From: Deltaproteobacteria bacterium Ga0077550 | GTDB lineage: Bacteria; Myxococcota_A; Polyangia; Nannocystales; Nannocystaceae | NCBI GenBank assembly: GCA_001464385.1 | Contig: LNFB01000288.1 | Location: 124,001-188,000, forward strand | Length of the DNA stretch: 64,000 bases | Reading direction: 5' to 3' | Part shown: positions 37-32,131 of the stretch, one piece after another | Layout of the letters: every line of letters starts with the position of its first letter | How positions within the stretch are numbered: the stretch's first letter is position 1 | Made by a program: the position numbers and the translations under genes | The notes under the pieces: model-generated | Databases searched by the model: none | What the model was told of the DNA's origin: nothing | Seen by the model: the letters and a program-made list of their open reading frames with translations, nothing else

Positions 37-1443
37 CTAGAACGGCTCGGACACCGGCACGATGCCGGGCCAGAACGGCTCGTGGTCGATGTCGAGGACC
101 GACATCATCGTGGCGTAGTAGGCGGTCGTGCCGAACACCGGCTCGTTCGGCATGACCTCCATCGACATCGGATCGGTGCGGCCGAAGATCTTCCCGCCGT
201 TGGCGACAAGGCCGCCCATCATGAAGTACGCCTGGTACCGCGAGCCGGGGCCACCGGTGTGGTCGGAGCCGCCGCCCGAGTTGTAGCCATTGTCCATCAC
301 GTTGTCGCGGCCGAACTCGGTCACGCACCCGACCAGCGTGTGATCCCAATACGTGCCACCCTCGGGGTGTGGCATGAGCTTGAGCGCGTAGTTGACCCCC
401 GCGAGCACGCGGGCCAGCGTGTTGGCCGACATCGGGTACGCGGTCATCTCGCCCGAGTGCGTGTCCCAGCCGCCGACCGACGCCCCGGCGTTGCCGCTGT
501 CGCCGATGCACACCGCCGCCGAGCCGTAGCCGATGAAGCGCAGCGCGAGCGCGGTGTCGCGGCCGAGCTGGCTGGTGCCGAGGATCGCGGCGAGCTGCGC
601 GTTGGTGAGGCCGTTCGCCGAGCCGCCCGGCTCGGTCTCGACCTTGAGCGCGGGATCGAGGAACACGTTGCGGAAGGCCTCGACGTTGGCCTTGCCGTTG
701 GCGAGCCGCGCGATCATCTGCTTGTGGCGGTTGCTCCGCGACTTGATCGCGTAGCCGTCGAGTCCGGCCTCGAGGGCGCGGGCCCACTCGGGCTGTCCGC
801 CGGCGTCGTCGCCGTTCTGCGCGACGAACTCGGAGTGCGACGGCACCATGACCGGCGTGATCGAGCCGTCGGGAGCGCCGAGCGGCGTGGTCGCCTGGCC
901 GGTGCCGATGACCGCGGGCGGGAACACGAGGCCGTTGCTGCCCTCGGTGTAGTTCTTGTGGTTGGAGTAGATGCGGCTGATGATGCCGGGGCCGCCCTCG
1001 CCGAGGCCGCTGCCGATCCAGTTGCGCGCGGTCTGGTGATCGCCGACGCCCGAGGACGCGCCTGGCGTGTGGTCGACCGTGCCGAGCACGCAGATCTCGT
1101 GGCTGATGGCGGTGAGCGGCGGGACCGCGGCCATGCCGAGGGCGACGGTGTCCTGGTACGGCTGGTTGTCGAAGATCGACGAGACGCCCCACTCGGTGGT
1201 GCCGCTGCCCGCTTGCACGCCGTACGGGTTCCAGCGGCCGTCGACGTTGCCGTTGAACATCGGCACGGTGCGCGCGCCACCGTCGAGGCTGAACAGCAGC
1301 ACGTGGTTGTGACGCGAGCGCGGGATGTCACCGCCGGCGTAGCTCAGCCGGGGGATCCACAGGTGCGGCGCCGCGATGGCCCCCGCGACGCCCGTGAGCC
1401 CGTACTTCAGGAAGTTGCGACGATTGGCAAAGAACTTCGACAT
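37..1443 (-). CDS. Tat-exported DUF1501 (sulfatase/alkaline-phosphatase-like) protein
   Basis: 468 aa. The N-terminus has a twin-arginine motif (residues 7-13, NRRNFLK) followed by a hydrophobic stretch to about residue 30, so it is probably exported folded through Tat. DUF1501 hallmarks are visible: HVLLFSLDGGARTVP near residue 50, a GGWDTHSG segment in the second half and a TEFGRDN segment towards the end. The family belongs to the alkaline-phosphatase-like superfamily; no substrate is established. The start at 1443 is preceded by GGAGGT with 7 nt spacing. The gene lies 32 nt downstream of the DUF1549-like lipoprotein gene on the same strand, so the two are probably co-transcribed, as is usual for DUF1501 genes paired with DUF1549/DUF1800-type partners. 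Confidence 0.9.
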   Translation of the reverse strand: MSKFFANRRNFLKYGLTGVAGAIAAPHLWIPRLSYAGGDIPRSRHNHVLLFSLDGGARTVPMFNGNVDGRWNPYGVQAGSGTTEWGVSSIFDNQPYQDTVALGMAAVPPLTAISHEICVLGTVDHTPGASSGVGDHQTARNWIGSGLGEGGPGIISRIYSNHKNYTEGSNGLVFPPAVIGTGQATTPLGAPDGSITPVMVPSHSEFVAQNGDDAGGQPEWARALEAGLDGYAIKSRSNRHKQMIARLANGKANVEAFRNVFLDPALKVETEPGGSANGLTNAQLAAILGTSQLGRDTALALRFIGYGSAAVCIGDSGNAGASVGGWDTHSGEMTAYPMSANTLARVLAGVNYALKLMPHPEGGTYWDHTLVGCVTEFGRDNVMDNGYNSGGGSDHTGGPGSRYQAYFMMGGLVANGGKIFGRTDPMSMEVMPNEPVFGTTAYYATMMSVLDIDHEPFWPGIVPVSEPF

Positions 1444-1475
1444 GGTGGTGACCTCCGCTCGTTCGCCCGTACGCA

Positions 1476-3194
1476 CTAGTAGTAGAAGAAGTCCGCCGAC
1501 TTGAGGACCAGGCGGCAGGCCTGGATCGCGAACTCGGTGGGGGTGCACTCGAGGTCGTCGCGGCACAGCGAGATGCCCTCGTCGACGCCCTCGGAGGCGC
1601 CCTCCATCGTGGGGCGGATGAGCGCGGCGGAGTACACTTGGTCGACCGCCTCCCACAGCGCCTCCTCCGACTTGTCGCTGGGATCGTCGACGACCGACAG
1701 CGGGTAGATCGGGGCGCCTTCGCCGGCCATCTCGCAGAGCTCGGCGGTGAGCGTGGCCTGGGTGAGCGCGGCGATGAGGCCGGTCCGGGCCTCGCGGAAC
1801 TGGCCGACGCGATCGGGGCAGCCGCCGAGCAGCTGGGCCTTGTCGCGCAGCGTGTAGTCGGGCTGGCCGCCCGGCAAAGTCGCGTAGGTGTGGGGGTGGA
1901 AGCCGCCGTTGCCCGACTGCACCTCGGGGTAGCGGTGATCGCAGCCGACCAGCGGCGTGCCGGCGAGCTTGAACGCGCTGCGCAACCAGTCCTCGGCGTC
2001 CATCTGCTTGACCGGCCCGTGCAGGTACGGCGGATCCCAGTTCTCGTCGTCCGGCGAGTCGACCTCTTCGTAGCGGTTGGTCGAGGTGTACAGGACGCTG
2101 GTGAGGATCTCGCGATCGACCGCGCGGACGTTGCCGTTGGTCTCGACCATGAGATCGACCAGGGCTTGGCGCACCAGCGGCAGATCGGCGCCGGCGTCGT
2201 AGCCGAGGTAGCGCATGAGCGCCCGGTCGACGTACGACTCGTAGAAGGCGGGCTGCTCGGCGATGAGCTGGCCGGGGCGACGCAGCAGGTCCCACTGCTC
2301 GGTGGTCAGCATGCTCTGGTCGATGATGTTGGGGCCGGGGTCGCTGGTGTCGCCCGGCATCACCGGCGGCACGAGGACGGTCTGGTCGCCCCAGAAGTCG
2401 CTGTGGCAGTCGGCCTCGTTGGGCGCGGCGCAGGCCAGCGTGTTGAGCACCACGTTCTTCGCGTTGCTCTGCATCGGGTCGGGCACCGCCCGCTCCTCCC
2501 AGAGGTGCCACAGCGGCTCGAGGGCGAGGCGCTCGGCCGGCGTCGCCTCGCGGCCGAGGAAGGCGCGGAAGCTGAACGCGACCAGGTCGTTGCCGTCCCA
2601 GCGGCCGAGGAACGCCGGGTGGGTCGCCGCGAGCTCCGCGAACTGGCCGAGCGTCAGCGTGCCCGCGTGCAGCTCACCGGCGCGCGCGTCGAGATCGGCG
2701 ATGTACGCGTAGTGCGTCACGAGCGAGTTCATCTGGAACAGGTCGGCCCACATCCGCTGGCTCGTCCGCAGGTACTCCGGCCGGGCCATGAACGCGTCGA
2801 CCAGTTCGTCCGCCGACTTGTACTTGCACTGCTGCTCGTACTCGAGGTCGGTCGGCGACTCGCCGAGCAGATCGATGTACGCGCGGCGGCACATCTCGAC
2901 GTCGTCCGCCGGCGGCGGCTCGACGCCCATGCCCTGGATCATCGGGCACGCGGCCTCGTCGATGACGTTGTCGAACTCGAGGCCGTCGCAGATCTCGGAC
3001 GGCTCGCCCGTGTCGACCGCGCCCGTGTCGGCCGAGTCCGCGGCGCCCGTCGAGTCGACGCCGGGGTCGGTCGTCGCCGGCGCGGTCGCGGTGCCGGTGT
3101 CCTCGGCACCGTCGTCACCGCCGGACGAGCCACCGTTGCAGGCGCATAGGGCTAGGATCACCCCGATGGAATTTCGCGGTACGGCTCGTCGCAT
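1476..3194 (-). CDS. DUF1549-like secreted lipoprotein, partner of DUF1501
   Basis: 572 aa. A short signal peptide runs into ALCAC, giving a likely lipidated Cys near residue 18-20, followed by an Asp/Thr/Gly-rich linker (about residues 20-65) typical of myxobacterial surface lipoproteins. The segment MCRRAYIDLLGESPTDLEYE resembles the conserved start of DUF1549 (RRAYLDLTGxPPT). At least ten cysteines are spread along the chain, but there is no CxxCH, so unlike many DUF1549 relatives it should not bind c-type haem. The start at 3194 has AGGGAG about 10 nt upstream. Family placement rests on this motif and on the adjacent DUF1501 gene; the biochemical role is unknown. Confidence 0.75.
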   Translation of the reverse strand: MRRAVPRNSIGVILALCACNGGSSGGDDGAEDTGTATAPATTDPGVDSTGAADSADTGAVDTGEPSEICDGLEFDNVIDEAACPMIQGMGVEPPPADDVEMCRRAYIDLLGESPTDLEYEQQCKYKSADELVDAFMARPEYLRTSQRMWADLFQMNSLVTHYAYIADLDARAGELHAGTLTLGQFAELAATHPAFLGRWDGNDLVAFSFRAFLGREATPAERLALEPLWHLWEERAVPDPMQSNAKNVVLNTLACAAPNEADCHSDFWGDQTVLVPPVMPGDTSDPGPNIIDQSMLTTEQWDLLRRPGQLIAEQPAFYESYVDRALMRYLGYDAGADLPLVRQALVDLMVETNGNVRAVDREILTSVLYTSTNRYEEVDSPDDENWDPPYLHGPVKQMDAEDWLRSAFKLAGTPLVGCDHRYPEVQSGNGGFHPHTYATLPGGQPDYTLRDKAQLLGGCPDRVGQFREARTGLIAALTQATLTAELCEMAGEGAPIYPLSVVDDPSDKSEEALWEAVDQVYSAALIRPTMEGASEGVDEGISLCRDDLECTPTEFAIQACRLVLKSADFFYY

Positions 3195-3698
3195 TGGACT
3201 CAACTCCCTGCCGGGCGGCGTCGTGTAGAACACGGGGGCGCGGGGGCTCTCGCGAGGTTTCGCGGCGGGGTGGTCCCCGCACAAGCTCCGACGTGTGAGA
3301 CCCCACCTCATGGGGGGCTTTCCGGGGTCCCACGGAAAAAGTTGCCGGCCCGCGCGCCGGGTTCCCCATCGGCCTGATTCGCCCGAATTCGTGGGTTCTC
3401 GGGGATTCCGCGGCCCGAACATCGAGGCCGGATTCGCCCCGATCGCGTACGCCGAGATCGCCCGCGCGCTGCGCATCGGCCTGCACGCATCGACGCCCGC
3501 GCTCGGATTCCTGCCGAATCGCCACGACACCGCGGTGACCGTCGGCCGTCGCTTGCGTGTCGAATCCCGACGCGAGCGCCAGCGCGTCGTCGTCCTCGTC
3601 GAGCAGCACATCGAAGCCGCAGGTGTCGATCGTCAGGGCCGCGGCCATCCCGGCGCACCCACGGCGAGGCGCTACGTACAACACTCGACACGACGAGG
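3195..3698. other. Intergenic region between divergent genes
   Basis: About 500 bases without a convincing gene, between the start of the DUF1549-like gene (minus) and the M15 peptidase (plus). It must hold both promoters, but I cannot pick a -35/-10 pair with confidence. The minus strand at roughly 3660-3545 reads as an open frame beginning MAAALTIDTCGFDVLLDEDD with strong G/C third positions. It soon loses coding character and has no recognisable fold, so it may be a gene remnant or chance. Confidence 0.5.
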
Positions 3699-5300
3699 AT
3701 GCCCCGCACCGGGCTCCACGCGTCGGCTACCGTGATGTCGGGGCACATGCTGGCGAACGCACTACTCTCGACGATCCTGGGCCTCGATGGTCCCGTCTCC
3801 GCGCCGTGCGGGCTCACGCAACCGCTGGATCCCGACTACGGCAGCGTCCCGTACGACTGCGCCGAGTCGCAGGACATGGGCTACGACAACGGCGACCCGT
3901 TCGACATCACCGTCGTGATGATCGACGGCGAGCCGGTCGAGAAGGACACCGCCAACGCGTTCTGGGTGATGCGCGAGGCGGCGTCCGCCGACGGCGTCGA
4001 GATCCACATCAACTCCGGCTTCCGCACGATGGAGGAGCAGGAGTACTTCTACATGTGCTACACGTGCTGTTGCTGCAACAGCTGCAACCTCGCGGCGCAG
4101 CCCGGCTACAGCAACCATCAGAGCGGCCACGCGCTGGACTTGAACACCAGCGCCGCTGGCGTCTACGACTGGTTGGCCGCGCACGGTGGCGAGTACGGGT
4201 TCTCGCGCACGGTGCCCAGCGAGGACTGGCACTGGGAGTGGTGGGGCGGTGGCCCTGGCGGTGGCATCTGCGACATCGCGGCGGCCCCCACCGGGACCCT
4301 CGACGCGGCGGGCTGCGAGGGCATCCGCGGGTGGGCACAGGATCCCGACGCCCCCGAGGCCGCGCTCGGCGTCGAGGTTGCCTTCGGCGCGCCGACGGGC
4401 GATCCCGCGGCCGTGTCGGTGTCGATCGTCGCCGACCAGGAACGCGCAGATCTGTGCGAGCCGCTCGGCACCTGCAACCACGGCTTCACCCTCGATGTGC
4501 CGCTGTCGCTGCAGGACGGCGCGCCGCACGACGTGCACGTCTACGCGATCGACAGCGACGGGGCCGACAACGCCGAGCTCGTCGCGAGCCCGCAGCAGCT
4601 GATGTGCCCGCCGCCGCCGGTCCCCGAGGGAGTCCGCCGGGCGACGGGCGCGGCGAGCCTCGCCGGCTGGGGCTTCTCGACGTTCTGGCAGATGATGAAG
4701 GTCGACGCGGCCACGCTCGACGAGCTCGACGAGTGGACGGCGCTGGCGAACGCGCCGCTGCTGGTGCGCACCGAGGACGCGCCCGAGGTATGGTGGGTGG
4801 ACTCGGGCTGGCGACGCCACGTGCCGAGCCCGGAGGTCGCCGCGGCGTGGGGCCTCGACCTCTCGACGGCGGAGATCGTGACCGCGGAGATCCTCGATCA
4901 GTGGCGCGAGGGCACGCCGATGCGCGACCGGCCGGTGCTGGTCTCGGTCGACGGCGTGACCGTGTATCTGATCGACGACGCACAGGGCGACGGCTCCGGC
5001 GGTGGAGCCGACGGCGGCGAGGGGGATGACGGCGGCTCGGGCAGCGGCGGGGACGACACGCTGGATCCCGACGATGGCTCGGACAGCGGGGCTGCGCTGC
5101 CGGGGGCCGACGACGAGGGCGACGCGGGCTGCGGGTGCGCGGGCGGCCCGTCGGGCCCACGCGGGGGCCTGATGCTGTTGGTCGTCGCCGCGATCGGTCG
5201 CCGGCGAGCACGCGCACGGTCGCTGCGGGTTTCCCCTTCGGCTACGGGAGCCCAGGGCAATCGATCTGGCGGTTCTGCGACAACTGGCACGTCGCGCTGA
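3699..5300 (+). CDS. M15 (VanY-type) D-Ala-D-Ala carboxypeptidase-like protein with MYXO-CTERM-like tail
   Basis: 533 aa. The M15 zinc-peptidase signature is present: SNHQSGHALDLN at residues 138-149 (ligands H140 and D147) and DWHWEW around H178. Such enzymes trim peptidoglycan stem peptides. Just before the first motif is a cysteine cluster, six Cys within residues 120-129. A central segment (about 205-300) starting GCEGIRGWAQDPDAP resembles accessory beta domains on myxobacterial secreted enzymes. The tail has a Gly/Asp-rich linker, GCGC, a short hydrophobic stretch and RRRARAR, which is the MYXO-CTERM sorting pattern. About 25 residues follow the Arg cluster, which is longer than usual. 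The 3' end overlaps the convergent VWA gene by 59 nt. The start is uncertain: ATG 3699 or ATG 3735, neither with a good ribosome site. Confidence 0.85.
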   Translation: MPRTGLHASATVMSGHMLANALLSTILGLDGPVSAPCGLTQPLDPDYGSVPYDCAESQDMGYDNGDPFDITVVMIDGEPVEKDTANAFWVMREAASADGVEIHINSGFRTMEEQEYFYMCYTCCCCNSCNLAAQPGYSNHQSGHALDLNTSAAGVYDWLAAHGGEYGFSRTVPSEDWHWEWWGGGPGGGICDIAAAPTGTLDAAGCEGIRGWAQDPDAPEAALGVEVAFGAPTGDPAAVSVSIVADQERADLCEPLGTCNHGFTLDVPLSLQDGAPHDVHVYAIDSDGADNAELVASPQQLMCPPPPVPEGVRRATGAASLAGWGFSTFWQMMKVDAATLDELDEWTALANAPLLVRTEDAPEVWWVDSGWRRHVPSPEVAAAWGLDLSTAEIVTAEILDQWREGTPMRDRPVLVSVDGVTVYLIDDAQGDGSGGGADGGEGDDGGSGSGGDDTLDPDDGSDSGAALPGADDEGDAGCGCAGGPSGPRGGLMLLVVAAIGRRRARARSLRVSPSATGAQGNRSGGSATTGTSR

Positions 5301-6894
5301 CCGCAGTGCCACCGGGCGCGGGGACACCATCTCGACGCACGAGCTGGAACTCGAGGTTCCAGCCCTCCTCGGAGCAGACGTCCGAGAGACGATCGTCGAC
5401 CAAGGTCACGAAGCACACGTCCTCGCCGTCGGGCAGGCTCCCATCCGCCGCGCACGTCTCGATGTTCGTCTCGACGACGTCACCGCTGGCGACGTCCGGC
5501 GCTTCTTGGATCAGGGTGCACTGCGGCTGCAGACCATCGCCGACCGGATCGGTGTCCGCGACGCAGGCGGTCATGCACGCCGGCTTGATCTGGTCGCGGA
5601 TGGTGTTGGCGATCGCCGACAGCGCGTCGGAGTAGTCGTCCTGGCAGATCGAGTAGATGTTCGGCCCGTCGCCGACCTCGAACGCCTCGGCGAACTCGCG
5701 CTCTCGCACCGGCGGCCGGGCCGTCGATGTCCCGGCGGCGCTGGCGTAGGTGCAGCCGGCACCGATGCCGAAGTCGTTCTGCTCGACCGGATCGAGCGAT
5801 TTGGCGTAGGTCAGCTCGCCGTCGTAGCCGTCCGGGACGCCAGCGATGAGCGCGACCAGGACCTCCTGACTGGGCGTGATCGTCTGCTTCGCGGTCTCGA
5901 TCTCCTGGATGAAGTCGATGTAGCGATTCAGCGGGTGGAGCACCGCATCGCCGTCCGCGACGTCGATGTCGCCGTCGACGTTCTTGTTCGACGAGCGGCA
6001 GGTGTCGTACGGCGTGCCACTGCCCTCGCAGACCACGCCCGCGTTCCAGCACACCGCCGAGGTGGGCCCCATGGCGTCGGGATCGGACCAGAAGACCTGG
6101 CCGCCCCCCTGGCTCGCGGACAAGAAGATCGACGCGTACTCGTTGTTGTACGAGCAATCGACCTCGTCCGTGATGATGACGACCGACAAGATCGCGTTGC
6201 TGCGCAAGAAGCCGTACTGCTTCTCGTCGGCGTTCTGGGCCCGCAGGAGGGCTTTGTACATCGACTCGAGATGGGACTCGAAGCCGCAGCCCGCGATTCC
6301 CTGGGGGCCGAAGCACTGGAACGCCTCGGTGGTGCTGATGTCACCGGCGAGGTTGGTCTTGCCCTCGATGTTCTCGAGCCAGGGGCGCTCCTTCGGCTCG
6401 GGATCGAACTCGGTGGTCGTCGGTTCGATGCCGATCGACTCCGTCGAGCACACGTCGGTGCACGCCACTGCGGTGGCGTCGGCCGGCGGGCTGGATTGGG
6501 ACACGAATTCCCCCTGGCGGCTGCGACAGCTGGACAGCTGCAGCTTGCCGGCCTCTGGCGACGTACTGCCCCCGCATTGGGGGTTGCCGTTGTCGGTCGT
6601 GGTGACCCCGATGCGGTAGTTCGCCTCGACCATGGGATCCTCGAGGACGTCGATGAACGCCGGGAAGTTGGCCGCCAACAGCCCCTGTTCCTCGCCCATC
6701 GAGCCCGAGTTGTCGATCACGAAGAGAATGTCGACATCCTTGTTCACCGTCAGCGCCACCGCGTTCTCCTTCTCCGATGCCGCCTCGTACTCCACGTCCT
6801 TCAACGGGTGATCGAGACAGGCGAGCAGTGTCGGCGAAACGACGCCGGTGGCAGCGAGCAGCGTCATGCGGAAGACGAGGGAGATGCGGGGCAT
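5242..6894 (-). CDS. VWA-domain lipoprotein
   Basis: 550 aa. The signal peptide ends in a lipobox, PTLLAC with Cys26, so this is an envelope lipoprotein. A von Willebrand factor A domain follows: VDILFVIDNSGSMGEE carries the MIDAS triad (D61, S63, S65), and SVVIITDEVDCS near the middle forms the domain's later beta strand. A Cys-containing C-terminal half (CxxxCV, SATCQLSQNRQIDC) is probably disulfide-stabilised outside the cytoplasm. VWA proteins bind partners through a metal ion; the partner is unknown. The start has GGAG 5 nt upstream. It stands between the two secreted DUF pairs and points the same way, so a shared surface function is possible but not shown. Confidence 0.85.
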   Translation of the reverse strand: MPRISLVFRMTLLAATGVVSPTLLACLDHPLKDVEYEAASEKENAVALTVNKDVDILFVIDNSGSMGEEQGLLAANFPAFIDVLEDPMVEANYRIGVTTTDNGNPQCGGSTSPEAGKLQLSSCRSRQGEFVSQSSPPADATAVACTDVCSTESIGIEPTTTEFDPEPKERPWLENIEGKTNLAGDISTTEAFQCFGPQGIAGCGFESHLESMYKALLRAQNADEKQYGFLRSNAILSVVIITDEVDCSYNNEYASIFLSASQGGGQVFWSDPDAMGPTSAVCWNAGVVCEGSGTPYDTCRSSNKNVDGDIDVADGDAVLHPLNRYIDFIQEIETAKQTITPSQEVLVALIAGVPDGYDGELTYAKSLDPVEQNDFGIGAGCTYASAAGTSTARPPVREREFAEAFEVGDGPNIYSICQDDYSDALSAIANTIRDQIKPACMTACVADTDPVGDGLQPQCTLIQEAPDVASGDVVETNIETCAADGSLPDGEDVCFVTLVDDRLSDVCSEEGWNLEFQLVRRDGVPAPGGTAVSATCQLSQNRQIDCPGLP

Positions 6895-7044
6895 GGGGGC
6901 TCCACCGCGCGAGGTCCGCCCGAATTGGGGGCCTCGGCGTCCATGTGTTCCGCAACGGCTCGACTTCCATCACGCGCCACGACGCAAGGCGAAGGAAGCA
7001 CCGAGTGCTCCCCTCGTCGGCGGGCGACGTGCTCCGCGACGACT

Positions 7045-8430
7045 CTAGGCCAACAACGCCGCGAGCGGCGTGTTCGAGTAGCCGTTGCCGGACCCGACCT
7101 CGGTCGCCTCGGGCACGACCGACTTCAGGATCGCGAGCAGGACGTCCGACGTGTTCTCGCCGCTGGGCGAGTGGTAGTGGATGCCGGGGTGCGTGAGCGC
7201 CCCGCCACCGCCGCCACACACGAGGATCGGCATGTCGTCGGTCGAGTGGGTCAGGCCGCTCGCGGCGTCCGACGACGCGAGCAGGACCGAGTTGTCGAGC
7301 AGGTTGCCGGCGCCCTCGGGCGTCGCCTGCAGCGCCTCGAGCAGGTAGGCGAGCTGCTGCATCGTGTAGATGGTCGCGGCGTCGACCATGTCGTTCATCC
7401 CACCGTCGTGGGTGAGATCGTGGTGGCCCTGGGTCGCGCCCACGGTGTTGAACACGGTGTAGCCGACCGAGCCCGTGAACTGCACGCTGGCGATCCGCGT
7501 GACGTCGCAGCTGAAGGCCATGACGATGAGGTCCGTCATCGCCCGGTTGACGGCCTCGAGCTGCTCCTGGCCCTCGATGTCGTCGTTGTTCTGCTGCGTC
7601 ATCTCGGGGATCTCGCACAGCGGCGCGAGGGCGTCGATCTGCGAGCGGATCTGCTCGACGCTGGCGAGGTGGGCGTCGAGTCGGACCTTGTCCGCGTTGC
7701 CGACCCGCAGCTTGAGCCGCTCGACGTCGGCCTTGACCGCGTCGAGGCTGGCGATGCGGTGCGGCTTGGTCGGGTCGTCCGGCACGGAGAACGAGCCGAA
7801 GAGCTGGTTCCACACCTCGCGCGGATCGAACAGCTGCGACAGCGGCGAGTCCGGCCCCTGGTGCGAGAGGAACTGCAGCGTCGGTCCCTCGCCGCCGATG
7901 ATGCGCTTGGACACCGCGACCTGGATCGACGGCAGGAACGTCTCGCCGCCGATCGCCGCGGCAGCGACCTGATCGATCGTCGGTCCGCCGAACTTCGACG
8001 CGTAGTTGGCCCCGTTGGGCGGCAGCTCGATGAACGGATGCCCCGCGAACAGCACGCAGCCGTCGTGGTGACCGCGGCGCCCCGGGTTCGCCGCGCCGAC
8101 GCGCGTGCCCGACACGAGCGAGACGTAGTCCTTGACGTTGGAGAACGGCTGGAGCTGCGGCGTGAGCTCGTAGCCCGCGCCCTGCCCCGCCGGCCAGAAG
8201 CGCAGGCCCGAGCCGCCGTTGTTGGGGTCGTTGAGCGCGACGCCGTTGCCCCAGAACCAGGTGAGCATGCGGCGAGCGAACGGCGTGCCGCCGGCGTAGG
8301 CCTCGCCGTGATCGTCGAGCATCACGTCGAGCACGGGCAGCGCGAGCGCGACCGCCGTGCCGCCCGCGACACCGCGGAGCATGGCCCGACGACCGAGGGT
8401 GAACCGAGAACGGGTGGTCTTGATCAGCAT
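7045..8430 (-). CDS. Tat-exported DUF1552 protein
   Basis: 461 aa. The Tat motif is GRRAMLRG (Arg14-Arg15), followed by a hydrophobic stretch to about residue 35. The body matches DUF1552: MLTWFWGNGVALND after the signal, GHHDGCVLFAGHPF around residue 120, LDAHLASVEQIRSQ and QGHHDLTHDG further on. The family is secreted and common in myxobacteria and planctomycetes; I know of no demonstrated activity. The start at 8430 has GGGGGAG 7 nt upstream. It lies 17 nt after the DUF1592/DUF1588 gene, the usual two-gene arrangement for these families, so the pair is almost certainly one transcript and probably one complex. Confidence 0.9.
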   Translation of the reverse strand: MLIKTTRSRFTLGRRAMLRGVAGGTAVALALPVLDVMLDDHGEAYAGGTPFARRMLTWFWGNGVALNDPNNGGSGLRFWPAGQGAGYELTPQLQPFSNVKDYVSLVSGTRVGAANPGRRGHHDGCVLFAGHPFIELPPNGANYASKFGGPTIDQVAAAAIGGETFLPSIQVAVSKRIIGGEGPTLQFLSHQGPDSPLSQLFDPREVWNQLFGSFSVPDDPTKPHRIASLDAVKADVERLKLRVGNADKVRLDAHLASVEQIRSQIDALAPLCEIPEMTQQNNDDIEGQEQLEAVNRAMTDLIVMAFSCDVTRIASVQFTGSVGYTVFNTVGATQGHHDLTHDGGMNDMVDAATIYTMQQLAYLLEALQATPEGAGNLLDNSVLLASSDAASGLTHSTDDMPILVCGGGGGALTHPGIHYHSPSGENTSDVLLAILKSVVPEATEVGSGNGYSNTPLAALLA

Positions 8431-8447
8431 GGTGTTGCTCCCCCTGC

Positions 8448-10163
8448 TCACTCGGGTTCCCCGACCACGCGGAAGGCCGGGCTCGCCACGAGCTCGACCA
8501 GGAACGCCCGCATGCGGTAGTCGCCATCGGCGAACGTCGCCGTCAGCTCGTCGATCTCGACCATCTCGGTCGGGAGCTCGATGTGTCCGGTCGCGTGGCG
8601 GAAGAGGTTCCGGACCAGGCACGCGGTCGCCTCGGGGTCCTCCTTGAGGATCGCGCCCAGCGCCCGGGCGCCCGCGAAGGCCTGCCCGTCGACGTCGGCG
8701 TTCGCGTCGATCGTCTCGCCGTTCTCGATCGTGCGGAACGAGCCGATGCCGTCGTAGTTCTCGAGGCCGAGGCCCATCGGATCCATCAGCTTGTGGCAGC
8801 CGGCGCACGACGGGTCGGCCATGTGCGCCTCGAGCCGCTGGCGCATCGTCGCGTACTCGGCGGCCGGCGGCAGCGTGGTGTCGACGCCGACCGGCGGCGC
8901 CGGGATGTCCTGGCACAGCACCTGGGTGCGGATGAACTTGCCGCGGTAGGTCGGCGACGTCGTGGTGACGTGGCCGAGGACCGAGAGCAGGCCCGCGTGC
9001 CCGAAGAGTCCGCCGCGCAGCTGCTCGGCCGGGAGCACGACCTGGGTGGGCGTGGTGTACTGCTCGGGGTTCGGCAGGCCGTAGTGCGCCGCGAGCTGGG
9101 CGTCGACGAAGGTGAAGTCGGCGTCGAAGAGATCGCGGAAGTCCGCGTCCGCGTCGAACGCCAGGTGCGTCACCAGGGCCCGGGTCTCGTCGCCCATCGC
9201 CGCGGCGAGCTCCGGGCTGAACGTCGGGAACACCGTGGGGTCCTTGGGCACCGTCGCGAGCTCGCGGATGCGGAACACCTCGGCCGCGAAATCGGCGAGG
9301 GCCACCCGCGTGTCGGGCGACTCGACCAGGGTCCAGGCGACCTCGCGGACCCCATCGGCGTCGTCGAGCGCGCCGGCCTCGGCGAGGTCGAGCAGCTCGG
9401 CGTCGGGCGTGCTGTCGCGCAGGAAGAACGACAGGCGCGTGGCCATCTCGACGCCGGTGAGGCGTCGGCGGCCCTCGACGTCGCCGGGCTCGCCAACCTC
9501 GACCTGGTAGAGGAAGTTCGGCGACTGCAGCATCGCCGCGACCACCGTGCGCACGCCGAGATCGAAGTCGCCGAGGTCGGCCGCCGCGGCCAGGCCGACG
9601 CCGACGTAGCTGTCCTGCTCCTCGACGATGAGCGGGCGGCGGAAGGCGAGCCGACCGAAGGCGGTCACGAACTCCCGCAGACACGCCTCGTCCGTCGGCC
9701 CGCTGGGCACGCACGTGTGGTGCGCGGCGAGCTTGGTCGCGTCCGCCGCGGCCGCGGCGGCCCGCGCCGAGGCCTCGAACGCGTCGACCTTGGCGTCGGT
9801 CAGCGACAGCTGCGAGGCACCGACGGCGTCGAAGCCGTTGATCGCGACGTCGTTCGGCGGCGTGACGGCCAGCGACGACGCCTCGCCGAGGAGGTCGCGG
9901 ACGCTCCGCACGTACTGCCGCGCGAGCAGCAGGCGCAGTCGCACCGGCGCCGGCTCGAACTCGGCATCGACGCCGTCGTCGGCCCCGGTGCCGCCATCGT
10001 CGTCGCCAGCGGTGCCGTCCGCGGTCGCGTCACCACCCTGCTCGGCGGCCCCACCGTTGCCTCGGCCATCGAGGCCCGAGTAGCAACCCATCGGTAGCAG
10101 CGCGCCGCAAAGCGCGATCGTCCTGCATGTGTGCTGCACGTGTCTCGACCCCCGCACGAGCAT
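8448..10163 (-). CDS. DUF1592/DUF1588/DUF1585 secreted haem lipoprotein
   Basis: 571 aa. Signal peptide with lipobox LLPMGC (Cys27), then an acidic Gly-rich linker and the chain of domains usual for this family. A DUF1587/DUF1595-like N-terminal part includes [18 protein letters not shown]. The DUF1592 core follows with [14 protein letters not shown]-type sequence and [15 protein letters not shown], then DUF1588 and a DUF1585-like C-terminus. DUF1588 contains one c-type haem site, CAGCH at residues 453-457, followed by [14 protein letters not shown]. The protein is therefore a likely electron carrier or haem enzyme working with the DUF1552 protein encoded 17 nt downstream. The start codon has no clear ribosome site; a start shortly downstream would lose the signal peptide. 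Confidence 0.9.
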
Positions 10164-10271: not shown

Positions 10272-12083
10272 TCACTCGGCGAGGACGACCCGCGATGCGT
10301 CGCGCTCGCGGATCCACCGGGCGATCGCCTCGCGATCCGGCGCGTCACGATCGCGCAACACCCCCGCGCCCTCGCGGTCGGCGGGCGCGTCGGCGAGCGC
10401 GGTGCGGATCCGCTCCGCGAGCGCAGCGTCGGGCACGGCCCCGCGCTCCGGCGCGCCGAGCTCGACGACCGCGGGCCAGATCCGCGTCAACGATTCCCAC
10501 GCGACCTCGCGCACCGCCGCGTAGGGATCCTCGAGCGCCTCCGCGAGCAGGGCCCGCTGCCACTGCGATCCCGCGATCGCCGTCGCCGGGGCCCACCCCA
10601 GGTGCCAGGCCCAGAGCGCCCGCACGCCGGCCTCGGCCGCGAGCACGCCGGTCGCCGCCGCCGCGGGCTCGCCGGCCGGGATCTCGACCGCCTCGCCGCG
10701 CCACCGCGACAACCACGCGGACGTCCAGCCGAGCGAGCGATCCAGGTGACACAGGTTGCACGCGTTGGGTCGCCCGGTCTCGGCGCTGATCGTCGCGTCG
10801 GGCGTGTCGACCTGATGGCTGCGGATCGCCCCGAGCAGGCCCCACGTCGTGCGCGGCAAGTGGCAGTTCATGCACCCGGCGCCCTCGCCCTCGGCGTGGT
10901 GCGTGTGCGCGACGTCGGCGTAGCGCGCGGCGGCGTGGCACTGGGTGCACGCAGCGTCGCCGTCCATGCCCGCGCGCAGCTGATCGTCGCGGCTTCCGTC
11001 GTGCAGCGAGTGGCACGACAGGCACGACAGCTGGCCCGACGCCGCGCACGGCGACTCGACCAGCGCGTTGTACTCGCGGCCGGTGACCCGCACCATCCCG
11101 TCCGACCAGAATCGATCCGCGAGGAAGTTCGGATCCGCCTCCAGCACGGCGTCGAGCCAGTCGGCGTCGCGTTCGTCGTCGCGATCGTCGTCGCGCGCCG
11201 GGTGACGCACCAGGCGGCCCCAGTCCGCGATCGGATCACCCGCAGCATGCGACGAGCCGTGCGCGAGCCACCCCGCCTCGTCGTCGAACTCCGTGATCGC
11301 GTGGCACTGCGCGCACACCTGCGCGCCCGCGTCGGACGCCATCGCCCGCGGCTGCACGATGTCCGACGGCGGGTCCTCGCCGCGCCCGAGGTACCGCGTC
11401 CACGGGTTGCGCCGCGCCGCCACGTGGGCCGCCGCCGGGCCGTGGCACGACTCGCACGCGATGCCGAGCTCGACGACCTCGGAGGCGACCTTGCCTGTGC
11501 CCTCGCGCCACCCCGGTGTGCCCGCGACCGCGTGGCAACGGATGCAGACGCGGTTCCACGTGTAGACCCCGTCGTCGCCGGCCGGGCGCACCAGCGTGGC
11601 GGCGTTGGGCACGAAGCGCTGCGCGTCGATGCGCCACGCGTACTCGAAGGCGCGCACGGCCCCTGTCGCCGGCTCGGGGATCCAGTACAGCTGCAGGTGG
11701 TGCGAGCCGGTGGTCATCACCACGGGCTCGATCCGCGGCTCGCCGGTCGGCGACGTGCGCACGACCTCGGGACGCGCCCCCGTCCACCGCAGCGACACGC
11801 CCCCGGGCAGCTCCCCCGACCACGGCGCGACGATCGTGTCCCGGCCCGCGCGCTGCGTCATCGTGCGGTGGTAGCTGCCGTGCCAGCTCGCGTACGCGGC
11901 GGGGTGACACGCGGCGCACGTCTCGGAGCCGGCGTATCCGTCGTCGCGATCGAGCTGCGGGGTCCACCGCGCCCGCTCGCTCGACCACGCCCGATCTGCC
12001 CGGCCGTGATGGACCCGCGCCCACATCGCGGCGCCGGCGAGGCCGGCCAGACCGAGCAGCACCCATCGCGGCGGTGCACGCAC
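10272..12083 (-). CDS. Membrane-anchored octahaem c-type cytochrome
   Basis: 603 aa from a GTG at 12083. A hydrophobic segment at residues 7-20 is an anchor or signal. Eight CxxCH motifs follow at residues 56-60, 180-184, 210-214, 257-261, 354-358, 379-383, 404-408 and 442-446, a pattern like cytochrome c554/NrfB-type multihaem proteins. Many extra histidines (such as TTGSHHLQ and HTHHAEG) could be distal haem ligands. The last 155 residues have no haem and are Ala/Trp-rich and helical, suggestive of HEAT-like repeats. It should act outside the cytoplasm in electron transfer; the partner is unknown. The start is the least certain part: no clear ribosome site precedes the GTG, and the open frame continues upstream. 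Confidence 0.85.
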   Translation of the reverse strand: MRAPPRWVLLGLAGLAGAAMWARVHHGRADRAWSSERARWTPQLDRDDGYAGSETCAACHPAAYASWHGSYHRTMTQRAGRDTIVAPWSGELPGGVSLRWTGARPEVVRTSPTGEPRIEPVVMTTGSHHLQLYWIPEPATGAVRAFEYAWRIDAQRFVPNAATLVRPAGDDGVYTWNRVCIRCHAVAGTPGWREGTGKVASEVVELGIACESCHGPAAAHVAARRNPWTRYLGRGEDPPSDIVQPRAMASDAGAQVCAQCHAITEFDDEAGWLAHGSSHAAGDPIADWGRLVRHPARDDDRDDERDADWLDAVLEADPNFLADRFWSDGMVRVTGREYNALVESPCAASGQLSCLSCHSLHDGSRDDQLRAGMDGDAACTQCHAAARYADVAHTHHAEGEGAGCMNCHLPRTTWGLLGAIRSHQVDTPDATISAETGRPNACNLCHLDRSLGWTSAWLSRWRGEAVEIPAGEPAAAATGVLAAEAGVRALWAWHLGWAPATAIAGSQWQRALLAEALEDPYAAVREVAWESLTRIWPAVVELGAPERGAVPDAALAERIRTALADAPADREGAGVLRDRDAPDREAIARWIRERDASRVVLAE

Positions 12084-12193
12084 CGTGAGCAGGCTACCGC
12101 GACGGGCAGCGGCGCAGGGACGCCGGGCCGGATTTCGCCGCTTTCTTGGGCGTGATGGGCCGCCCTTGAGACCGTCGACGGGCGAGGTTCGCC

Positions 12194-12394
12194 ATGCCCG
12201 ACCGCAACACACTCCAAGGGTTCACCGATCTCGAGCACACGTTGTTCGGCTGGGACGCGGGCCACCGCGACACGTCGGCGCAGGGCTTCGTCCGCGACGC
12301 GCTCGGGCCCCGCCGCGCGCGCGTGCGCTTCAAGACCGATCGCTACCCGACCGTGCCGCTGGGCCCCGACACGCTGCGCGCCTGCAATTCGTGA
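12194..12394 (+). CDS. Small hypothetical protein (66 aa)
   Basis: 66 aa starting MPDRNTLQGFTDLEHTLFGW. I do not recognise it. Support for a real gene: GAGG sits 6 nt upstream of the ATG, and third codon positions are almost all G or C across the whole frame, as in neighbouring genes. No signal peptide or membrane segment is visible; the composition is polar with several Arg, Asp and His. It is transcribed away from the cytochrome gene and converges on the metallo-beta-lactamase-fold gene, whose stop lies 24 nt beyond its own. Confidence 0.5.
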   Translation: MPDRNTLQGFTDLEHTLFGWDAGHRDTSAQGFVRDALGPRRARVRFKTDRYPTVPLGPDTLRACNS

Positions 12395-29914: not shown

Positions 29915-30079
29915 GAGCCGCCCGGAGCCGCGGTCCCACCCGGCCCAACCGCGGCCACCCGCGGCGCCGAACGCCGGCCTCGCCGGGAAATCGGCGCCGG
30001 CCCGGGCCGGGGCGCCCACGTCGCCCCCATCGGGTGTAGGATGCTCGTCCTCCTTCACTCGAACCAACTCGAGACGAAC

Positions 30080-32131
<2,052 letters not shown>

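Follow-up and report, generated by a model that had tools for sequence, protein, structure and literature searches.

Genes of the PSCyt2 and PSCyt3 families were described from freshwater Verrucomicrobia (He 2017, PMC5615132); they belong to the same domain families as the genes studied here and likewise tend to have a constant neighbour gene. The authors of that study suspected a role in carbohydrate metabolism from fusions with carbohydrate-binding modules (CBMs), predicted the products to be periplasmic or cytoplasmic, and reported that PSCyt gene density goes down as glycoside hydrolase density goes up. The families are therein already known and their adjacency is hinted at; the main text does not name the two neighbour families, and the article as excerpted holds no analysis of fold, active site, Myxococcota or paralogues (PMC5615132). 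A second related system is Cbp2D of Cellvibrio japonicus, whose X132 domain is described as DUF1587 with one CxxCH (PMC8981238, PMC10916295). X132 shares both features with the haem lipoprotein described below as PSD, an equation made from published domain labels and not from sequence, and CBM2 of Cbp2D recurs in some PSD proteins. X132 differs in being fused to X158, X183, FN3 and CBM2, and the partner discussed in the excerpted papers is Cbp2E, whereas here it is DUF1552 (PMC8981238, PMC12542752, PMC10916295). Mutants in cbp2D grew poorly on insoluble cellulose (PMC8981238, PMC12542752), and cbp2E mutants likewise grew poorly on cellulose. A third system is the DUF1501-DUF1800 operon found beside bacterial chitin synthases, which likewise combines a Tat-type DUF1501 protein with a constant partner gene (PMC5122149, as excerpted). 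That partner is DUF1800, for which the present genome gave no match. In the open-licence literature we did not find the amplification of DUF1552-PSD pairs, the apparent change in the active site of DUF1552, a homology of each half with its counterpart beside DUF1501, or a link between DUF1552 and Cbp2D.

The window analysed here is a stretch of 64,000 nucleotides from the genome of Deltaproteobacteria bacterium Ga0077550. A sequence-only reading had placed two DUF pairs on one strand of it, and the gene models and Pfam matches for DUF1501, the DUF1549-like protein, DUF1552 and PSD confirmed this for the reverse strand. PSD (8448..10163) is a lipoprotein with the domains DUF1587-DUF1595-DUF1592-DUF1588-DUF1585, all five above cut-off (PSD4 2e-35, PSCyt3 4e-30, PSD5 4e-17, PSD2 4e-15, PSD3 1e-7). 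Its stop is separated by 17 bases from the start of a DUF1552 (HXXSHH, PF07586) gene (7045..8430; E 8e-53, 180.5 bits, cut-off 30), which encodes a Tat-type signal (R14 R15). The other pair begins with a PSCyt2/DUF1549-like lipoprotein (PF07583; 1476..3194; E 1.5e-8, 35.3 bits, cut-off 29.8), followed by a DUF1501 protein with a Tat-type signal (PF07394; 37..1443; E 7e-14, 52.2 bits, cut-off 27), in which the match covers profile positions 226-367, the C-terminal part only. Between the pairs lie a VWA/MIDAS-type lipoprotein on the same strand (5242..6894) and, on the forward strand, a VanY-type peptidase with a MYXO-CTERM-like tail (3735..5300; E 1e-14), a neighbour that probably does not belong to the system. 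For VWA the match fell short of the Pfam cut-off (15.2 vs 23.8 bits), and the NCBIfam MIDAS adhesin model matched this protein only partially (45.5 bits, cut-off 700).

Throughout the genome DUF1552 and PSD occurred side by side. We found 44 DUF1552 matches representing 43 genes, two of them being pieces of one frame-broken gene, and 43 PSD4 matches, which together form 42 adjacent pairs. A single gene of each kind remained unpaired, even at a looser threshold. PSD was the first gene in 39 of 41 intact pairs. The same applied to external loci, for which the PSD profile gave 578 confirmed candidates and the best 80 were taken: DUF1552 adjoined the focal PSD in 76 of these 80, and one of the other four lay at a contig edge. 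One external locus (L145) encoded a PSD with CBM2 and no DUF1552 nearby. Record titles assigned the external loci to Myxococcota, Acidobacteria, Planctomycetes, Verrucomicrobia and Gammaproteobacteria, with Nannocystis and Saccharophagus represented among them. Within the family, DUF1552 matches ranged from 0 to 53 per genome, with at least one in 27 of 29 genomes. Lack of co-occurrence had been named as a finding that would speak against the pairs. For DUF1552 and PSD4 the opposite was observed among 95 genomes of the phylum, in which both were present in 47, both absent in 41 and only seven were discordant, an agreement in 88 of 95 (Fisher p 8e-19, Spearman 0.92, both uncorrected for common descent). 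Tree distances of the two halves were correlated as well (r 0.763 for 41 pairs; reached in 0 of 5000 permutations, maximum 0.328), and the nearest paralogue was identical in both trees for 18 of 41 copies. These congruent trees show inheritance of the pair as a unit; co-duplication alone can give such congruence, and contact between the proteins is unproven by it. The copies are old, identity among the DUF1552 proteins of this genome being low (median 27%, maximum 51%). The best reading of these data is that DUF1552 and PSD form one functional unit.

The fold of DUF1552 was predicted with AF2 from 80 sequences (pLDDT 86.7). Foldseek with this model returned 26 matches to the alkaline phosphatase superfamily at E <= 0.001, and VIA aligned it to PafA with Z 16.4 (rmsd 3.9-4.0, 273-279 residues), so that the earlier description of this protein as alkaline-phosphatase-like holds in the model. 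Sequence searches of solved structures gave no meaningful match, and DUF1552 had no Pfam match to the sulfatase family (PF00884) at E 0.1. The conservation of candidate active-site residues was assessed in a joint alignment (n=123) of 80 external and 44 own-genome rows, the window copy being counted in both sets and the own-genome rows including both pieces of the broken gene (C203). His337 and His341, which form an HxxxH motif of candidate Zn1-type metal ligands (7408..7422), were invariant (80/80 external, 44/44 own-genome rows). Of the further candidate ligands at 7246..7269, His395 was kept in 80/80 and 43/44 rows, and position 388, an Asp in the window copy, was E or D in 69/80 and 36/44. 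Asp153 was kept in 80/80 and 42/44 rows, and His121 (8068..8070) in 79/80 and 41/44, while Asn62 was common outside (68/80) but not in this genome (19/44).

The family consensus around His121 is HxxGxxxLLTG, the window copy being one residue shorter here, and this is the same spacing as in the sulfatase motif CxPSRxxLLTG. In the usual order of the superfamily, N62 closes the first strand, where the metal Asp is expected, H121 opens a helix at the expected place of the nucleophile, and HxxxH, D/E388 and H395 come after. By motif spacing and helix start, a near-invariant His would thus stand at the expected nucleophile position, and H337, H341 and H395 together with H121 and D/E388 are candidates for a His-rich metal site. 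Position 388 aligned with the metal Asp of the sulfatase TADHG motif in a weak local profile match (probability 56). The nucleophile register of H121 was absent from the profile alignment to sulfatases, in which only 2 of 30 sulfatase loci had the canonical signature.

These features bear on whether DUF1552 might simply be a hydrolase of the superfamily (phosphatase, sulfatase or esterase) with a variant active site, next to which the haem lipoprotein would serve as an anchor or work separately. The superfamily fold, the retained Zn1-type His pattern and the sulfatase genes close to two pairs (C311, C81) are in line with this possibility. DUF1552 nevertheless differs from PafA, sulfatases and NPP in the His at the expected nucleophile position and in the Asn that often replaces the first metal Asp, it lacks a PF00884 match, and its partners all retain a haem motif, which together make an ordinary hydrolase unlikely.

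The haem motif of the window PSD had been read as CAGCH at residues 453-457 (8793..8807, reverse strand), which is exact, and it is the sole CxxCH of that protein. Exactly one CxxCH was present in 43 of 43 PSD proteins of this genome and at least one in 83 of 84 PSD ORFs from the loci of other genomes. The window protein combines this motif with the five PSD/PSCyt3 domains in order (PF07626, 07637, 07631, 07627, 07624), and its lipobox Cys27 was invariant among 34 aligned paralogues. The AF2 model of PSD (pLDDT 90.0) found no convincing counterpart among solved structures (best Foldseek E 0.76; best VIA Z 5.5, for residues 84-219 only). The VIA match, a likeness to the phycobilisome linker domain, was too weak to use.

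Some PSD paralogues carry CBMs. We scanned 48 of 127 PSD ORFs, picked because they had additional segments or an atypical number of haem motifs (44/84 external, 4/43 own), and found CBM60 in 11, CBM2 in 4, and malectin, AMPK1_CBM and CBM35 in one each, counted per family with overlaps unchecked. In this genome three paralogues had such modules, namely CBM60 (E 4e-13), AMPK1_CBM (3e-9) and CBM35 (6e-4, under its cut-off); the window PSD had none in Pfam. Lytic polysaccharide monooxygenases (LPMOs) might be the recipients of electrons from PSD, with DUF1552 as a catalytically dead binding protein, such as a lectin or chaperone, and PSD serving other secreted oxidases. The apparent loss of the canonical nucleophile would fit this, as would the reduction of LPMOs by CjX183, another domain of Cbp2D (PMC8981238, as excerpted). 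Teredinibacter proteins with related domains, on the other hand, did not act as LPMO donors (PMC10916295, as excerpted), and the DUF1552 His pattern is invariant. Moreover, LPMO_10 was found in only 6 of 29 family genomes, with one match each, against up to 53 pairs, and was not found in three genomes of the same genus that have 19, 22 and 53 DUF1552 matches. Since LPMO_10 is rare while the pairs abound, feeding AA10 LPMOs cannot be their general role, and we regard a dead binder with an electron-donating PSD as improbable.

The second pair proved to be larger than the window shows. Haem had been attributed only to the partner of DUF1552, and this restriction does not stand: a PSCyt1 cytochrome lipoprotein gene lies directly downstream of DUF1501 on the same strand (C288:122618-123988), and haem seemed confined to one pair because this gene begins 13 bases past the left edge of the window. 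Among 25 family loci including the window's own, PSCyt1 followed DUF1501 in 24, the exception being a short locus situated where its contig ends, and a DUF1549-like gene preceded DUF1501 in 22; loci without one of these genes were short ones. With these neighbours present upstream and downstream in most loci, the DUF1501 group is therefore a unit of three genes that includes a cytochrome of its own. Both C-x(n)-CH sites of PSCyt1 were kept in 23 of 23 covering rows, with spacings of CX6CH and, depending on the clade, CX2CH or CX4CH. In two full-length rows (L187, L188) the script matched no second site; the column is conserved there and a longer spacing is likely. The DUF1549-like protein had no CxxCH in 22 aligned rows, despite the haem motif implied by the name PSCyt2. 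DUF1501 was present in 70 of the 95 phylum genomes, and this genome encodes eight DUF1501 genes after two pieces (C109) were merged and the weakest match (C95), a sulfatase, was dropped.

DUF1501 and DUF1552 were homologous in hhalign (probability 97.8, 371 columns); in a control with the DUF1552 alignment reduced to 40 rows, the score was 88.4 and none of 24 column shuffles exceeded 23.2. An invariant His of DUF1501 (row position 130, protein residue 136, 25/25) was set opposite His121 of DUF1552 by the profile alignment. The window's DUF1549-like protein and PSD matched only weakly when compared directly (probability 7.4). The partners of six other DUF1501 genes in this genome, all with CxxCH, matched both proteins, PSD with probability 99.9 over 316 columns and the DUF1549-like protein with probability 96.5 over 369, the observed score being reached in 0 of 24 column shuffles for each link. 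Profile comparison thus supports a relationship of the DUF1549-like protein and PSD through these intermediates, and the suggested common theme of the two pairs was upheld. The N-terminal block of PSD matched the DUF1501 partners at their C-terminus (68 columns, probability 85.9) but gave no match at the N-terminus, which might suggest a circular permutation between the partner types; a weak internal repeat in PSD calls for caution here. An organising role in the envelope or intracellular membranes, as proposed for PVC bacteria and their DUF1501 module (PMC4452313, as excerpted), would leave 43 divergent copies, the carbohydrate-binding modules and the haem unexplained, and we give it hardly any credence.

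The sequence-only reading had further suggested a surface system from the two pairs with the VWA adhesion-type lipoprotein between them. One form of this idea would be an adhesion or predation machinery organised by the VWA protein. VWA lipoproteins do occur near some DUF1552 pairs (5 loci), and in this genome as in six of nine loci examined from relatives the DUF1501 unit has a different, small VWA lipoprotein as its fourth gene, which here lies past the window edge. Most pairs are without a nearby VWA gene, however, and the family of the window VWA is scattered over the genome in 48 match pieces, its two closest paralogues lying on contigs without DUF1552 matches. Nor is the gene conserved at this place. 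In two loci of the same genus with the gene order kept (L236, L237), the order was PSD-DUF1552, VanY, DUF1549-like, DUF1501, PSCyt1, VWA, PSD(-DUF1552), with VanY as the only recognised gene between DUF1552 and the DUF1549-like gene; in L236, DUF1552 alone remains of the first pair at the contig end. We therefore rejected the window VWA as a specific partner, judged it to be outside the system and consider a VWA-organised adhesion or predation system very improbable. The flanking copies in both loci had their highest identity with the window pair (67-91%) and with the neighbouring pair past the window edge (75-81%). A third same-genus locus had a different DUF1552 upstream, and six loci from other genera lacked a DUF1552 pair within the stretch retrieved. 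The side-by-side position of the pairs, found in two genomes of the genus and not in these six loci, is therefore a trait of the genus, as judged from few genomes. Around the pairs in general there was no recurrent third gene (Pfam, 108 ORFs within 2.6 kb, at most four of any family), and the 25 commonest families listed for these flanks included no recurrent glycoside hydrolase. BLAST clustering of the flanks gave one cluster of 14 loci and two small ones.

Our tentative preference is for a two-protein metal-haem enzyme acting on glycans, a reading we hold to be possible rather than probable. Several observations speak against it: the window PSD has no CBM, the 25 commonest flank families include no recurrent glycoside hydrolase, PSCyt and glycoside hydrolase densities run in opposite directions in freshwater Verrucomicrobia, where the products were predicted to be periplasmic or cytoplasmic, Asn62 is kept in fewer than half of the own-genome rows, the register of H121 did not emerge from profile alignment, and some copies (one DUF1552, one PSD and the PSD of L145) stand without their partner. 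In this reading Tat would export DUF1552, probably in a folded state with metal already bound in the His-rich site, with an alkaline-phosphatase-type fold in which the usual nucleophile is replaced. PSD, once outside, would receive an acyl group at Cys27 and a single c-type haem, and may hold DUF1552 at the cell envelope in a physical complex. The pair could then act on complex carbohydrates, the putative substrates of the window copy included, as a redox enzyme or as a metal enzyme for which the haem relays electrons, and the divergent copies would serve different substrates. The DUF1501 group might be a divergent counterpart in which DUF1501 and the DUF1549-like lipoprotein work with a separate PSCyt1 cytochrome lipoprotein. 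A wider proposal, which we put forward as doubtful, is that DUF1552 and DUF1501 represent hydrolases of alkaline-phosphatase fold turned into His-rich metal redox enzymes with anchored cytochrome partners, which have radiated into tens of substrate-specific copies. They would form an oxidative glycan-attacking class outside the LPMOs, with a fold in the partner of DUF1552 not seen among solved structures.

Families of the DUF1501, DUF1552 and PSCyt type are common in several phyla, and the investment of 86 genes of one genome in one two-gene unit indicates that this unit matters. If the pair is indeed a metal-haem enzyme acting on glycans, it would help to explain the cellulose phenotype of Cbp2D, assign a role to many uncharacterised genes and bring in a further kind of enzyme that attacks polymers.

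Immediately upstream of the PSD gene, which encodes the DUF1587/1595/1592/1588/1585 monohaem lipoprotein, we found a gene for a multihaem cytochrome (window 10272-12212, minus strand) with eight CxxCH motifs and partial similarity to DmsE/GSU2203 decahaem models. An additional PSD-DUF1552 pair was encoded approximately 4 kb past the left edge of the window (G000:C288:116841-118983, in locus L059 of the source genome). Two DUF1552 pairs of this genome had a sulfatase gene shortly downstream (G000:C311:6834-7664 and G000:C81:6971-7783).

In the PSCyt1 lipoprotein, encoded next after DUF1501 just outside the window (L059:12119-13489), and in its relatives from loci L171-L195, one site is an expanded haem-type motif, CX6CH. 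A second site read CX2CH or CX4CH depending on the relative in the L171-L195 alignment, and two Met-Pro pairs were conserved.

The VWA/MIDAS-type lipoprotein (window 5242-6894, minus strand) belonged to a large family with 48 match pieces genome-wide, its closest paralogue being encoded on contig C127 (88% identity). Elsewhere in the window, a local G+C dip coincided with a 696-aa ORF (30041-32131, plus strand), which resembles a PrkA-type kinase.
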